IMG/VR virus record: IMGVR_UViG_3300048554_000560
Coordinates: 1-20,543 of that record
Length of the DNA stretch: 20,543 nucleotides
Strand: one strand, 5' to 3'
Source of the DNA: a virus
Position 1 is the first letter of the stretch. Every line of letters begins with the position of its first letter. The notes beneath the pieces are model-generated. The model had not been told where the DNA came from and did no database searches. It worked only from the letters and a program-made list of their open reading frames with translations. Both the position numbers and the translations under genes were made by a program. Shown here piece after piece: positions 5,804 through 18,725 of this stretch.

Positions 5804-6936
5804 TGCCTTTATATAAAGACCCAAGAACAGGAAAAACAAAAGAATTTGATACTGCCTCTGAAGCTGCTGGTGAAGGATATTTTGAGGAAGTAAAATTAGA
5901 GGACCAAGTTGACCCGGCTGTTATTGATGCAGTTAACAATGCTGGTGTTCCTGGATTAGAAGATGGTGAAGAAATAATTATTAATCCTGGACCATCACAA
6001 GCAGAAGAAGAGTTAGCAAATGCTGAAGAAAAAGCATTAGAAATAATAAACTCATTTTTAAGTGCGTGGGAAGGTTCAAATATTTACACTGGTAGTGATA
6101 CTACACCGGAGTTTGAAGAAGAAACAGAAACATACACACCTACAAAAGATGATGCAGCTGCATTATATCCATACTTCCCTTCTAATATTCTTGATGGATT
6201 AATAGCTAAGTGGACAGAAACAGGAAGTATTGATATTGCACTTGCAACAGTAAGAGGTAGTGATGAGTATGCTAAAGCATTCCCTGGTATAAGAAGAGAA
6301 GATGGAACTCTTCGTATGACAGAGATACAATACCTAGAATTAAAAGATGGTATGAAAGATGCATTAAGAACATACAACTTAAATCCCGATATATTTGCAG
6401 ATGAAATAACATCAGCAATAAGCGGTGATGTGGATATACAAGAATTTAAAGCAAGACTAGAGTTTGGTTATGAACAGTTAGTAAACAACAAAGAACAAGT
6501 ACTAGAAATATTTAACGAACAATATGGTTATGCAATAGATGAAACTTCTTTATTTGCTATGTTTATTAGCCCAACAATATCTACAGCAGTTTTAGAAAAT
6601 CAAATACTTACATCTCAAATACTTGCAGAAGCAGAAATAGCTACAGTATCAGTAGGACTTACAACAGCAGAAAAATTTGTAGAAGCTGATGTATCACAGA
6701 GAGATGCAGCTAAAGTATTTGCTAGAACAGATGAGTTGTCGGGCCTTACAGGTGCAGCCGCAGGTAGAGGTACTACCATTACTGAAGAACAAATTGCACT
6801 AGGAGTAGCTGGATTATCACCACAAGAATTAGGATTAGTTAAACGAGTAGCAGCACAAGAAGCAAGCGAAAGTGCTATACAGACAGGTGCATCAACAACC
6901 CAAGATGGGAAAGTTGTTGGATTAGTTGCTGAATAA
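5803..6936 (+). CDS. Putative internal/minor virion protein
   Basis: Encodes 377 residues, acidic. Residues 1-25 look like a small basic N-terminal motif, residues 45-115 are acidic and probably disordered, and residues 120-340 are helical. A Tyr-Ala-Lys-Ala-Phe-Pro-Gly-Ile motif near residue 160, followed by a Tyr-Leu-Glu-Leu helix, a Gly-Asp-Val-Asp turn and a Gly-Tyr motif, matches my memory of a helical virion protein family in Streptomyces and related actinophages; a search would be needed to confirm this. It is the last of the large pre-scaffold genes: its stop is followed within 5 bp by a palindromic operator and promoter, so the upstream operon probably ends or is relayed here. Confidence 0.78.
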   Translation: MPLYKDPRTGKTKEFDTASEAAGEGYFEEVKLEDQVDPAVIDAVNNAGVPGLEDGEEIIINPGPSQAEEELANAEEKALEIINSFLSAWEGSNIYTGSDTTPEFEEETETYTPTKDDAAALYPYFPSNILDGLIAKWTETGSIDIALATVRGSDEYAKAFPGIRREDGTLRMTEIQYLELKDGMKDALRTYNLNPDIFADEITSAISGDVDIQEFKARLEFGYEQLVNNKEQVLEIFNEQYGYAIDETSLFAMFISPTISTAVLENQILTSQILAEAEIATVSVGLTTAEKFVEADVSQRDAAKVFARTDELSGLTGAAAGRGTTITEEQIALGVAGLSPQELGLVKRVAAQEASESAIQTGASTTQDGKVVGLVAE

Positions 6937-6940
6937 CTAC

Positions 6941-6965
6941 CTGTTTAAACAACTTGTGTTATAAT
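6941..6965 (+). promoter_or_regulatory. Capsid-unit promoter with overlapping palindromic operator
   Basis: CTGTTTAAACAA (6941-6952) is followed by an extended -10, TG-T-TATAAT, with TG at 6957-6958 and the hexamer at 6960-6965. The expected transcription start is near 6972. The palindrome is centred about 25 bp upstream of that start, in the -35 region, where a bound protein would either block or recruit polymerase. There is no convincing -35 hexamer, consistent with an extended -10 promoter. It would drive the structured leader, scaffold and capsid genes. It is palindrome copy 2 of nine. Confidence 0.65.
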
Positions 6966-6971
6966 TAATAC

Positions 6972-7124
6972 GACACCCTACTAAGGTCGGGTGGTTAAAA
7001 TAGACCTAGAACGAAAACTGTCTTGATGCCTACATACAAGACACGATAAAAAAATAATATGTAGTAGTTCAGCCGATGACATAAATGCGGCTCGTAAAAA
7101 TATTATTTATAGGAGAGGACAGCA
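6972..7124 (+). ncRNA. Structured 5' leader of the scaffold-capsid transcript
   Basis: About 150 nt without a reading frame separate the promoter from the scaffold ATG. I see several inverted repeats: CACCC/GGGTG (6974-6978 with 6989-6993); an overlapping AGGTC/GACCT pair (6984-6988 with 7003-7007) that excludes the first; TGTCTTG/CAAGACA (7019-7025 with 7037-7043, 11-nt loop); and an outer AAATAATAT/ATATTATTT stem (7052-7060 with 7100-7108) enclosing AGCCG/CGGCT (7071-7075 with 7088-7092). The outer stem ends just before the ribosome site AGGAGAGGA (7111-7119). It matches no riboswitch class I know. It could stabilise this mRNA or regulate translation. Confidence 0.5.
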
Positions 7125-7574
7125 ATGTCACAAAACGAAGAAGCAAGCGTAGAAACCAATACTGGTGAAGATAAAAACTGGAAGGCAATTCGTGAGGAAA
7201 ATAAAACCCTTAAAGAAGAACTGATAAAGTATCAAGGCCAGGAACGAGATGAGTTGTTTAAACAAGTAGGTTTAGATAGGTCAAAAGGAATTGGTAAAGC
7301 AGCCGACCAAATGTACGAAGGCGATACTACAGCAGATGCATTAAAAGCATTTATAGCTGAAGAATTTGGCGAAGAAGTATTTGGGCAACAAGACAGTTTT
7401 CGTGAAACAGTCAACGCAGGGCAGGAAAGATTAGACAGCCTTGCAGCACAAGCACAAGCAGTGTCGGGTTCCCCAGGAATACGGGACCAAATAGCCGCAG
7501 CACAAGAAACTGGTAGGGTGCGAGATAGTATTGCTTCTAAAATGAAAGCTCTTAACGAGCTGGATAAAAAATAG
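7125..7574 (+). CDS. Putative capsid scaffolding protein
   Basis: Encodes 149 residues, acidic and helical, with a predicted coiled coil at about residues 18-45 (Lys-Thr-Leu-Lys-Glu-Glu-Leu) and Ala/Gln-rich helices towards the C terminus, ending in a basic patch. No cysteines are present. Small size, charged coiled-coil character and placement immediately before the major capsid gene are typical of scaffolding proteins that guide procapsid assembly and then leave. It has a strong ribosome site, AGGAGAGGA, and follows its own promoter and leader. Residues 44-47 are Leu-Phe-Lys-Gln encoded by a full copy of the dispersed palindrome (7254-7265). Assignment rests on context and composition rather than a catalytic or family motif. 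Confidence 0.75.
   Translation: MSQNEEASVETNTGEDKNWKAIREENKTLKEELIKYQGQERDELFKQVGLDRSKGIGKAADQMYEGDTTADALKAFIAEEFGEEVFGQQDSFRETVNAGQERLDSLAAQAQAVSGSPGIRDQIAAAQETGRVRDSIASKMKALNELDKK
7254..7265. promoter_or_regulatory. Dispersed palindrome copy 3 (in scaffold gene)
   Basis: A perfect TTGTTTAAACAA, read in phase as Leu-Phe-Lys-Gln and preceded by GAG (Glu), giving the same five-residue reading as copies 6 and 9 in unrelated genes. It lies 313 bp downstream of copy 2. Confidence 0.6.
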
Positions 7575-7575
7575 T

Positions 7576-7612
7576 TTAGGAGAATAAGCCTCCTAAGCAA
7601 GAAATTTAGGAG
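7576..7612 (+). promoter_or_regulatory. Alternative hairpins over the capsid ribosome site
   Basis: TTTAGGAGA occurs twice exactly 30 bp apart (7575-7583 and 7605-7613), with CTCCTAA (7590-7596) between them. CTCCTAA can pair over 7 bp with TTAGGAG at 7576-7582 or with TTAGGAG at 7606-7612, but not with both. The downstream copy is the Shine-Dalgarno sequence of the major capsid gene, so the second hairpin would hide it while the first would free it. Confidence 0.55.
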
Positions 7613-7618
7613 ATTAAA

Positions 7619-8629
7619 ATGGCCGCAATAGGCTCACCCGACCCGATTTCAGTAAGCGAAATCAACAACTTTACGGGTGAATTATTCAAAGTTGGTGCAA
7701 GAAGAACACCTTTACTATCAATGGTTGGTGGTTTAAATGGTGGTAAACTTCTTAACTCTCCTGTTTTCCAAACCCAAAAAGTAGATACACCAGCAGTATC
7801 CAGCTACACAGCTGTTGCTGAAGGTGGAACACCTGCTTATTTTGGTAGAAGCAGAAGTTCATCTATTGACTGTGTGCAAATATGGAACCAAGGTATTAAA
7901 CTTACCTATTCCGCATTAGCATCTACAGGATATTTGAACTCACAAGCTATGGAAAGCGGGACTGCCGCATTTGAAGGTTCAAACCCAATTAACGATGAGA
8001 TGGCTTTTCAATTAGAAGAGTTACTCTCCAAGATAGCAAGAGAAGTTGAATATGAATTTTTCAATGCTACCTTCAATGATGGAACAGATGGAAACCCAAG
8101 AGAGATGCGAGGCATCGCTGAATGGGTAGCTTCCGGAAATGGTTCATCAGCATTCGCACACGATACAAACAACGATGGAACAGGTACAGCCCAAGGGCTT
8201 GACTTTGATGCAATGGCTGAAACATTAAAATTAATGTATGATGCCGGTGCACCATTACAAAATGTTGTGCTTTTTGCAAGACCAGGTTCAGTCTTAGACT
8301 TAAACCAAAACCTTGTTAAAAGTGGTTCTAATCAAATGGCTATCTTACCAAGAGATAGAAATGTAGCTGGTATCAACATTGATACTATCGTTACACCATT
8401 CGGAAATATTGGATTAGCAGTGAACGAGTTCGTTCCAGCTGACCAAGCATTCGTATTGGACCTTGCATATCTTGATGTATGCTTCTTAAACATCCCTGGT
8501 AAAGGTGGTGTATTCGTAGAAGATACAGACAATGATGATGCAGCAGCAATATCAAAGCGTGTTTATATGGAAATTGGTCTTGAAAAAGGACCTGCCGAAT
8601 ACCACGCAGTTATCAATGGCGTAAGCTAA
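7619..8629 (+). CDS. Major capsid protein (HK97 fold, SU10/DUF5309-like)
   Basis: Encodes 336 residues. The opening region (residues 10-40, with a Thr-Pro-Leu-Leu-Ser-Met turn) and a Tyr-Ser-Ala-Leu-Ala-Ser-Thr-Gly stretch before a long helix with Glu-Glu-Leu-Leu-Ser-Lys-Ile-Ala resemble SU10-type (DUF5309) capsid proteins. A central Gly-Asn-Pro-Arg-Glu-Met-Arg-Gly segment, an Asp-rich insert near residues 178-195 and a C-terminal beta-rich P/A-domain-like part follow. Size and position after a scaffold are as expected. It would form the shell of the icosahedral head. Translation starts at ATG 7619 behind TTTAGGAGA. A terminator just after the gene and a dedicated promoter upstream suggest that scaffold and capsid are expressed as one strong unit. 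Confidence 0.85.
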   Translation: MAAIGSPDPISVSEINNFTGELFKVGARRTPLLSMVGGLNGGKLLNSPVFQTQKVDTPAVSSYTAVAEGGTPAYFGRSRSSSIDCVQIWNQGIKLTYSALASTGYLNSQAMESGTAAFEGSNPINDEMAFQLEELLSKIAREVEYEFFNATFNDGTDGNPREMRGIAEWVASGNGSSAFAHDTNNDGTGTAQGLDFDAMAETLKLMYDAGAPLQNVVLFARPGSVLDLNQNLVKSGSNQMAILPRDRNVAGINIDTIVTPFGNIGLAVNEFVPADQAFVLDLAYLDVCFLNIPGKGGVFVEDTDNDDAAAISKRVYMEIGLEKGPAEYHAVINGVS

Positions 8630-8641
8630 AGATAAAAATTT

Positions 8642-8681
8642 ACAAGATTTGGGTGGAACTCCACCTCCACCCTTTTCTTGT
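8642..8681 (+). terminator. Terminator after the capsid gene
   Basis: GGGTGGA (8651-8657) pairs with TCCACCC (8666-8672) over 7 bp with an 8-nt loop, followed by TTTTCTTGT. A shorter GGTGG/CCACC alternative lies within it. An outer ACAAGA/TCTTGT pair (8642-8647 with 8676-8681) extends the dyad across a TTT/TTT mismatch. This is the clearest rho-independent terminator in the window. Confidence 0.75.
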
Positions 8682-16810: not shown

Positions 16811-16917
16811 TGGAAGATGACTTCGTACTTCCGGACAATATGTTTACAGACAACCCTGTATTTGAAGACACTTCAAAAGAATTTGATGATGATTGTGGGG
16901 ATGCGTGTAAAATATGA
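16810..16917 (+). CDS. Acidic 35-residue peptide with Cys pair
   Basis: Encodes 35 residues, very acidic, ending Asp-Asp-Asp-Cys-Gly-Asp-Ala-Cys-Lys-Ile. It begins at a TAATG overlap and ends at an ATGA overlap with the secreted protein gene, so both boundaries fit translational coupling; this is the main evidence that it is real. The Cys-Gly-Asp-Ala-Cys pair could bind a metal or form a disulfide. No function is known. Confidence 0.55.
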   Translation: MEDDFVLPDNMFTDNPVFEDTSKEFDDDCGDACKI

Positions 16918-18725
16918 AAAAGTTTTTTAGTTTACTTGCAGCTTTCTTATTAGTTACTACACCTGCTTATGCTTACCACACAGAAACACAAACACCTTAT
17001 GGTATAAACATATCTGTTGATAATGAAACAGGAGAGATAGAACTTACCTTTCAAGAGAGTGATGCGTTAGAAGTTAATCCACCTGAATACTATAGGTTAT
17101 TTTTTGGTGATGATGACCAAGCAGCAGACTTCTCTATAGATACTAGCTTTGGTTTTAATGAAGCATTGTCTTGGAGAACTTATTACTTTACTCCTGAATA
17201 TATATACGAAAAGTTTGAAACAACTACGCTTACATTTTATGCAAAGATACAAGCAAGGAACGATACAGGTAGTACAGTTAGTGACTATACAGCAGTTGTT
17301 AGTGTAGAATATGATTATGATTATGTACCTGATACAACGACATCTAGTTCGACAACAAGCTCTACCACCACAACAACGACAACGCTACCTAAGGCGGAAG
17401 ATGTGGTTGAAGATGGTAACACAACCTATCTTGCGTGGGATGAATATGGTTGCGAACATCCGAACAACCCTTTATCGTTTAAAGAATACCTGGAAGCAGT
17501 AGAGAGTGGAGTATGGTTCGGTTATCAAGATGGTGATTGCAGTGATGTACCTGATATCATTACTATTATTATCGAAGAAGAGGAGATAGAAGATGAGTTG
17601 GACCAAGAGATACTTGGAGATGACACCCTCGGAGAAGAAGAAATTTTTATTGAAGAGGAAGAACTTACACAAGAAGAAATAGATATCATTGAAGCAGAAA
17701 TTAAAGCTGAAGAAGAGCGTTTAATTGCTGAACAGATAGATGCTGAAGAAGAATTACTTATACTAGAAGAACTAGAAGATAGTGTAATTATTCTTGAAGA
17801 TTTATCTGAAGAAGAGATACAAGAGTTCGTAGATGTTATACAGGAAATAGAAGATACAATAGAAATTATTGAAATCGTTGAAGAGATAATAGAACTAGAT
17901 ATACCCGAAGATATTATACTTGTTATAGAAGAAAAGGTTTTAGAAGATGATGATGTTGTTGTGGTGGAAGATGAAGAAGTTATCCAGGAAGTTTTGGATG
18001 AGCCAATACAGGAAGATGTTGAGGAGAAACTTGCAGAAGAACTTTCTGAAGAAGAGGTCATTGAAGAACTTGTTGAAGTTGAAGAGGTCATTGAAGAACT
18101 TATAACAGTAGAGATAGTAGAAGTATCTGAAGAGGAACTAGAAGAGTTCACAGAAGAGGAGTTAGTTGAGTATGAAGAAGCAAAAAAAGAAGCTATACAA
18201 GAGTTTGTACAAGAGCTTACCAACGAAGAAGTCGTAGAAGTACTTGAAGAAGTACAAGATGTTGGTGTACAAAACTTAGAACAAGTATCAGAGGAAGTAC
18301 AAGAGGTTGTACAAGCAGTAGTGGAAGAGGCTATTGATAATGTTGAAGAACTTACAGAGGAACAAGTTGAGGTTGTTGCTGAAGTATTACAAGTTGAAAC
18401 TGAGGATGTTGCTATTGTTGCAGAAGCAATTAAATCAGATGAAGTCGTAGCTGAAGCAGTAGAAGAATATGTAGAGAGAGCTGTAGAGAACGCAGATGTA
18501 GAAGACTATACACTTGCTGATGTTGTCACAGAAAAAACTTATGAGGCATTCCTTGAAAATCCAATAGAAGTATTTGTAGATGTTGATATACAAGATATAA
18601 ACCTATCAACCATTGGTAATGATATGACACAAGACCAAAGAGAAAAAGCACAAGAAGTTGTCGTGCCTGTAATTTTGACTAGAATAGTAAGTATCGCAGC
18701 ATTTGTGATGAGGAAAAGTTTATGA
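16914..18725 (+). CDS. Secreted or surface Glu-rich protein in the lysis cassette
   Basis: Encodes 603 residues. Residues 1-20 are a classical signal peptide ending Thr-Pro-Ala-Tyr-Ala. Residues 25-138 form a beta-sandwich-like domain. Residues 140-159 are a Thr/Ser linker ending Leu-Pro, a hallmark of actinobacterial surface proteins. Residues 165-212 hold a small domain with two cysteines and Trp-Asp-Glu-Tyr. Residues 217-530 are an extremely Glu-rich helical region with Glu-Glu-X-X-Glu repeats, including a direct DNA repeat. The last 20 residues are hydrophobic with a basic end, a possible membrane anchor. It is translated from an ATGA overlap and overlaps the next gene by 4 bp. Secretion and host-surface placement are inferred; function unknown, and acquisition from a host is possible. 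Confidence 0.75.
   Translation: MKKFFSLLAAFLLVTTPAYAYHTETQTPYGINISVDNETGEIELTFQESDALEVNPPEYYRLFFGDDDQAADFSIDTSFGFNEALSWRTYYFTPEYIYEKFETTTLTFYAKIQARNDTGSTVSDYTAVVSVEYDYDYVPDTTTSSSTTSSTTTTTTTLPKAEDVVEDGNTTYLAWDEYGCEHPNNPLSFKEYLEAVESGVWFGYQDGDCSDVPDIITIIIEEEEIEDELDQEILGDDTLGEEEIFIEEEELTQEEIDIIEAEIKAEEERLIAEQIDAEEELLILEELEDSVIILEDLSEEEIQEFVDVIQEIEDTIEIIEIVEEIIELDIPEDIILVIEEKVLEDDDVVVVEDEEVIQEVLDEPIQEDVEEKLAEELSEEEVIEELVEVEEVIEELITVEIVEVSEEELEEFTEEELVEYEEAKKEAIQEFVQELTNEEVVEVLEEVQDVGVQNLEQVSEEVQEVVQAVVEEAIDNVEELTEEQVEVVAEVLQVETEDVAIVAEAIKSDEVVAEAVEEYVERAVENADVEDYTLADVVTEKTYEAFLENPIEVFVDVDIQDINLSTIGNDMTQDQREKAQEVVVPVILTRIVSIAAFVMRKSL
18051..18101 (+). repeat. Direct repeat in the Glu-rich region
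   Basis: Two identical 21-bp copies, 18051-18071 and 18081-18101, lie 30 bp apart and encode Glu-Glu-Val-Ile-Glu-Glu-Leu twice, a ten-residue helical repeat. It suggests growth of the Glu-rich region by short duplications. Confidence 0.8.

Follow-up and report, generated by a model that had tools for sequence, protein, structure and literature searches.

The window analysed here, a stretch of 20,543 bases that forms part of virus record IMGVR_UViG_3300048554_000560, contains a 188-nt intergenic gap between the stop of an upstream gene at position 6936 and the ATG of a scaffold gene at 7125, and the question it raises is what the RNA leader spanning most of that gap does for the scaffold and capsid genes that follow. 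The sequence-only reading of positions 6972–7124 had described a structured leader before a scaffold–capsid unit, one that may set mRNA stability or respond to a signal. The structured leader proved to be real and conserved, with covariation in its support: compensatory changes among homologous leaders were looked for and were abundant, and the leader was present in relatives of the same gene order. That reading had missed a series of tandem pseudoknots and a covarying partner within the scaffold coding sequence (CDS).

The first gene of the unit was identified as the scaffold gene from its position immediately 5′ of the capsid gene (Table 1). It is syntenic with the gene for the ‘head scaffolding protein’ of Mycobacterium phage Mendokysei, and a Pfam family scan of its product returned no match. 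The nearest named relatives of the capsid protein, 26–33% identical, belong to phages of Mycobacterium, Propionibacterium, Bifidobacterium and Eggerthella. A TGnTATAAT or TGnTATACT box was found at the equivalent position 5′ of the leader in 47/47 non-redundant relatives, and the position of the promoter predicts a transcription start at about 6971–6973. At the other end of the unit, 137 of 173 related loci have a hairpin similar to that of the window 3′ of the capsid gene. The scaffold and capsid genes form one unit with its own promoter and terminator-like hairpin. A sequence similar to a T7-type promoter (TAATACGAC, 6966–6974) was also considered and was rejected, as it is not kept in relatives.

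Table 1 Features of the scaffold–capsid unit and its leader (window coordinates)
Feature	Position	Strand	Sequence or basis
Extended −10 promoter element, TGTTATAAT	6957–6965	+	Sequence; TGnTATAAT box
Pseudoknot 0, at mRNA 5′ end	6974–7007	+	Pseudoknot finder and covariation
Pseudoknot 0, stem 1	6974–6978/6989–6993	+	CACCC/GGGUG
Pseudoknot 0, stem 2	6984–6988/7003–7007	+	AGGUC/GACCU
Leader word X, ACGAAAAC, just 5′ of pseudoknot 1	7011–7018	+	Complementarity and tree covariation
Pseudoknot 1	7019–7064	+	Pair-set variation in relatives; A-rich loop 3
Pseudoknot 1, stem 1	7019–7025/7037–7043	+	UGUCUUG/CAAGACA
Pseudoknot 1, stem 2	7030–7036/7058–7064	+	CUACAUA/UAUGUAG
Pseudoknot 2, abutting the Shine–Dalgarno sequence	7071–7110	+	Pseudoknot finder and covariation
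Pseudoknot 2, stem 1	7071–7075/7088–7092	+	AGCCG/CGGCU
Pseudoknot 2, stem 2	7081–7087/7104–7110	+	AUAAAUG/UAUUUAU
Shine–Dalgarno sequence AGGAG of scaffold gene	7111–7115	+	Sequence
Scaffold gene, 149 aa	7125–7574	+	ORF; PHROG 7813
Long-range partner in scaffold CDS	7377–7403	+	BLAST self-match, duplex energy, tree covariation, codon conservation
CAAGACA, pairing with pseudoknot 1 stem 1 strand 7019–7025	7389–7395	+	Complementarity
X′, GUUUUCGU, pairing with 7011–7018	7396–7403	+	Complementarity
Major capsid protein gene, second of the unit	7619–8629	+	SU10_MCP, PF17236; PHROG 1328
Hairpin resembling an intrinsic terminator, with T-rich tail, at the end of the unit	8651–8672	+	Similar hairpin in relatives

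Ordinary folding undersells the leader because its conserved structure is not nested: the nested fold reached −31.6 kcal/mol (z −1.99) and was equalled by 6 of 200 shuffles, which is mildly unusual. When an H-type pseudoknot finder was applied, the leader tiled into three pseudoknots with a score of 49.3, as against a mean of 8.9 (sd 7.3, maximum 27.4) for 200 dinucleotide shuffles. The three pseudoknots recur across 47 non-redundant relatives, and this comparative evidence shows three tandem H-type pseudoknots running from the predicted 5′ end to the Shine–Dalgarno sequence. The three local stems noted previously are all present, as the first stem of each pseudoknot, and the last stem adjoins the ribosome site as had been described, its 3′ strand stopping right at the AGGAG. 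The claim of two mutually exclusive stems fared unevenly. CUACAUA/UAUGUAG turned out to be stem 2 of pseudoknot 1 and is compatible with its hairpin, whereas AAAUAAUAU/AUAUUAUUU does compete with pseudoknot 2; as a conserved helix, however, the latter was rejected, being confined to the window's own (A/B) clade and absent from more distant relatives.

Since MAFFT failed to align the second stem of pseudoknot 1 correctly across clades (alignment A1), pairs there were counted per sequence. In pseudoknot 0, stem 2 covaries through AGGUC/GACCU, AAGUC/GACUU, UAGUC/GACUA and UGGUC/GACUA; the per-sequence count gave no match for this pseudoknot in relatives L005, L007 and L013. Stem 1 of pseudoknot 1 shows U–A/G–C exchange among relatives, and its stem 2 occurs as CUACAU/AUGUAG, CUACUG/CAGUAG, CUACUU/AAGUAG and CUACUA/UAGUAG, with position 6 unpaired in 17 of the 47 leaders. 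Among the same 47, stem 1 of pseudoknot 2 was represented by 7 pair sets, each fully Watson–Crick, and its stem 2 by 17; the counts of zero unpaired leaders obtained for the pseudoknot 0 and pseudoknot 2 stem-2 positions are biased because these positions were picked to maximise pairing. Loop 3 is A-rich in each pseudoknot. Across most leader types the CCUAC/GUAG core of pseudoknot 1 is retained, while helix sequences differ and pairing is kept.

Related leaders were found in well over 100 marine viral contigs, always 5′ of the scaffold–capsid genes. A capsid-based search of viral contigs yielded 39 loci, a leader-hairpin pattern search at least 100 stretches and two more capsid searches 148 further loci; these overlapping sets, with some contigs common to several searches, amount to more than 200 retrieved loci. 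The full hairpin motif was present in 138 loci at one copy per locus, and a leader of 155–265 nt precedes the scaffold gene in virtually every relative. The leaders fall into 29 sequence clusters. Leaders that accompany capsid proteins just 44–48% identical to that of the window align end to end. The earlier statement that the leader resembles no known riboswitch class was borne out by Rfam, where searches of the window at the gathering score, of the leader with a cutoff of E ≤ 10 and of 14 related loci all came back without a match, and the leader belongs to an undescribed RNA family.

A sister type, with capsid proteins approximately 50% identical, carries four tandem pseudoknots in about 204 nt. 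Across 29 non-redundant sequences of this type, 98.8% of the cells for its 44 pairs were standard-paired and 20 of the 44 pairs showed two-sided compensatory changes, values reached by 0/500 shuffles; slid controls were 30–43% paired. Covariance model R1, built without pseudoknots, detects the sister type weakly (L031 and L251, 21 bits, E about 0.06). For other types, such as those of L276, L299 and L309, three pseudoknots per leader were predicted, calls that are provisional because shuffles yield 0.8–2.1 by chance.

ARAGORN found no tRNA-like or tmRNA-like element, no scaffold relative was obtained from the genome-contig search for bacterial homologues, and 40 leader-pattern matches in bacterial genome contigs were set aside as most likely due to chance because the extended motif was absent. 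In the isolated actinophages Mendokysei and B22, with gaps of 69 and 200 nt respectively, no recurring tandem-pseudoknot pattern was seen. A class-level genome search, using the class of an Acidimicrobiales genome, found capsid relatives on two contigs of a single 1.1-Mb genome, and the leaders of these two Acidimicrobiia-class contigs were of types E and C. Contig C30 of genome G169 (58 kb; L354 and L355) has the same ORF run at both ends, as expected if this Acidimicrobiia-class genome bin contains a phage of about 44 kb that is circular or terminally redundant. The genome-bin contigs and the actinophage-like capsid suggest an Actinomarina-like host, although the contigs may be there through binning or through infection.

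The partner in the scaffold CDS was evident from a BLAST comparison of the leader with its own sequence, which returned a minus-strand match at 7377–7403 (24/27, E 4e-5). Here X faces its coding complement X′ and the first strand of pseudoknot 1 faces CAAGACA, with weaker pairing extending on the CDS side to 7377. The predicted duplex, at −37.4 kcal/mol versus about −14 kcal/mol for both stems of pseudoknot 1, is the best site in the entire scaffold and capsid CDS, and the corresponding duplexes of six relatives range from −29.6 to −33.5 kcal/mol. In all 121 relatives tested this site was the leader's best complement in the available CDS, X and X′ being complementary at 8/8 or 7/8 positions throughout, with one non-Watson–Crick position in the 8-bp word in 43 of the 121 loci and a spacing from leader to CDS site of 345–374 nt.

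The 8-nt words match inside lineages and not between the main lineages, where cross-matches fall as low as 2–4 of 8; the lineage pairs are UUGUAAUC/GAUUACAA, UUGUAUUC/GAAUACAA, ACGAAUAC/GUAUUCGU and ACGAAAAC/GUUUUCGU. When changes were placed on a tree of the intervening scaffold and capsid codons, 9/9 CDS-word changes (15/15 by position) lay on branches with a leader-word change, and position 6 of X:X′ had swapped between A–U and U–A seven times, mostly via Leu/Ile codon exchange. A comparison of all leader 7-mers with all scaffold 7-mers revealed no other covarying pair in the window's clade. Next to X′, the coding CAAGAC complements the invariant stem-1 strand GUCUUG, and its codons are strongly fixed (CAA 100% vs 83% in general usage, GAC 98% vs 40%), although part of this conservation may be at the protein level since CAAGAC encodes Gln-Asp. 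The comparison thus shows leader strand 7011–7025 to be complementary to scaffold codons about 350 nt downstream and to co-evolve with them. It is possible that the adjacent leader and site were co-inherited by recombination, though the tree used intervening scaffold sequence. Because the strand is shared, the long-range helix and pseudoknot 1 cannot both form fully; X:X′ could instead stack on an intact pseudoknot 1 without displacing it.

Leader and coding sequence are also complementary in the four-pseudoknot type, where leader UCAAGUG matches a coding CACUUGA located at about nt 331 in the scaffold gene; being nearly invariant, the match offers no covariation. Rare codons are fixed in this type (Val GTG 100% vs 13% usage, Leu CTT 100% vs 27%), which suggests an analogous pairing network. 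In the same phages (L203–L270) a coding CAAGUG at about nt 183 of the scaffold CDS is invariant, and CACTTG is able to pair either with the leader or with this upstream CAAGTG. For a third leader type, the screen of leader against CDS found no comparable helix.

We propose, at a probability of roughly one half, that the scaffold–capsid mRNA has in its leader a cis-acting RNA switch that is coupled to translation and also serves as a 5′ shield. Pseudoknots 0–2 would fold as the leader emerges, shielding the 5′ end and presenting the ribosome site. Ribosomes following close behind RNA polymerase would then cover the scaffold site, so that the pseudoknot, or expressed, state lasts. Were scaffold translation low, through repression or a scarcity of ribosomes, the site would be exposed and could capture the leader strand, the kinetic order being pseudoknots first and a ribosome-free coding site taking the strand later. 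Pseudoknot 1 would open and the start region would become enclosed in a long-range loop that alters translation or decay of the mRNA, so that expression of the unit would depend on how much scaffold is being translated. The switch may in addition be biased by a protein, for example by scaffold or capsid protein in free form. Switching as such, its direction (on or off) and any protein ligand are what we infer in this scheme.

Two other explanations are serious rivals, and either could be combined with such a switch. Pseudoknot 0 begins a few nucleotides from the predicted start site, and promoter and terminator bound a short unit encoding the most abundant virion proteins, all of which would suit a static 5′ stabiliser and ribosome-loading element; its pseudoknots would guard an abundant late mRNA against 5′-end-dependent decay and leave the ribosome site accessible, with the helix merely compacting or protecting the message and no switching. 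T4 gene 32 mRNA, which has a leader pseudoknot, has indeed been described as the most stable T4 mRNA (PMC3014915). A single pseudoknot should however be enough as a 5′ block, the last pseudoknot abuts the Shine–Dalgarno sequence, and one strand common to pseudoknot 1 and the CDS pairing would be an odd design, and we regard a purely static role as unlikely. The constant location directly 5′ of the scaffold gene would equally fit an autoregulatory operator, with the pseudoknots as the binding site through which free scaffold (or capsid) protein represses its own message, as T4 gp32 does on its leader pseudoknot (PMC3014915), and helices that vary around a kept core of pseudoknot 1 favour such a protein-binding site. 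The operator by itself leaves the co-evolving CDS site unexplained and seems to us somewhat unlikely.

The leader is also discrete, structured and promoter-proximal, with a 15–24 bp antisense match to its own mRNA, as might be expected of a small RNA released to pair with the scaffold mRNA or to serve in packaging like the phi29 pRNA. Such a trans-acting RNA is improbable: among the loci examined the leader is never away from the scaffold gene, no terminator separates the two, and an RNA acting in trans would not need its CDS site at a fixed spacing. Equally, an H-type pseudoknot beside a Shine–Dalgarno sequence is a known riboswitch design (SAM-II, preQ1), and a new class sensing a small molecule might be envisaged. 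This we consider very improbable, given the absence of an Rfam match, freely covarying helices whose small common core leaves no obvious conserved binding pocket, and controlled genes that are structural rather than metabolic; the covarying CDS partner points to control coupled with scaffold translation, not to a small-molecule signal.

Further sequence elements of the window lie near the leader or elsewhere. A palindrome around TTGTTTAAACAA at 6939–6954, just 5′ of the leader promoter, recurs at 7252–7267 within the scaffold gene, the two copies being 17/18 complementary; it is also found 5′ of the promoter in distant relatives L271 and L277 and is a possible operator for a DNA-binding regulator. 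The scaffold–capsid gap (7575–7618) holds UUUAGGAG ... CUCCUAA ... UUUAGGAG, an anti-Shine–Dalgarno sequence with two alternative pairing partners, a decoy upstream and the Shine–Dalgarno sequence of the capsid gene itself. Its hairpin is conserved with compensatory changes in L001–L029 and is possibly a second translation-coupling switch. At 16914–18725 lies a gene whose 603-aa product begins like a signal peptide and contains a very long repetitive region rich in Glu and Val; a PHROG scan gave no match for this protein.

Known systems resemble the proposed switch in part. Scaffold synthesis in phage P22 is reported to be autoregulated post-transcriptionally, a precedent for the operator reading and a likeness in that scaffold synthesis is controlled after transcription, and we know of no pseudoknot leader there. 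In single-stranded RNA phages such as MS2, a ribosome site is controlled by a distant pairing that opens when one gene is translated; these too are long-distance pairings involving a coding region and tied to translation, whereas here the mRNA is that of a dsDNA phage and the leader–CDS pairing competes with a pseudoknot. Packaging RNA of the phi29 type is a separate transcript acting in trans; the present leader is always directly 5′ of, and promoter-linked to, the scaffold–capsid genes and has no Rfam match. A literature search yielded no relevant paper on phage leaders with tandem pseudoknots or on autoregulation of the P22 scaffold.

Gene 32 of T4, T2 and RB69 likewise has an H-type pseudoknot in a phage mRNA 5′ leader, where it precedes the ribosome site for a protein needed in abundance. 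Its product gp32, a single-stranded DNA-binding protein, autoregulates by binding a leader pseudoknot that lies 67 nt before the start, the interval being an unstructured stretch rich in A+U; a 2010 T4 review considered this possibly the sole viral pseudoknot in translational autoregulation (PMC3014915). Gene 32 differs in having one pseudoknot rather than three or four, a ribosome site covered by an A+U-rich tract that lacks structure, where pseudoknot 2 here abuts the Shine–Dalgarno sequence, control of a DNA-binding protein gene rather than scaffold–capsid genes, and no described partner in coding sequence (PMC3014915). The STAXI motif resembles the present leaders, with three tandem pseudoknots here and four in the sister type, in that its pseudoknot unit is tandemly repeated, two or usually three times; it frequently has UUCG tetraloops and lies near ssb, topoisomerase, antirestriction and integrase genes (Weinberg et al. 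2010, PMC2864571). STAXI, however, repeats one unit near DNA-handling genes, whereas every pseudoknot here has its own sequence, no UUCG loop is present, virion genes flank the leader and Rfam gives it no match.

How phages set scaffold:capsid dosage is poorly understood beyond a few model systems, and here a strongly covarying RNA element, tied to the scaffold CDS by base pairing, heads the capsid operon in phages of a widespread marine group. More tentatively than the switch itself, we suggest a new class of control in dsDNA phages, in which a tandem-pseudoknot leader, by way of its co-evolved helix with the coding sequence, would sense how densely ribosomes travel along its own gene and tune scaffold–capsid output, with neither a small ligand nor a regulator protein dedicated to the task. 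The class would be widespread in marine phages, its leader sequences having diverged so far that types have only topology in common. The present leaders would add a large and diverse natural set to the gene 32 pseudoknot.
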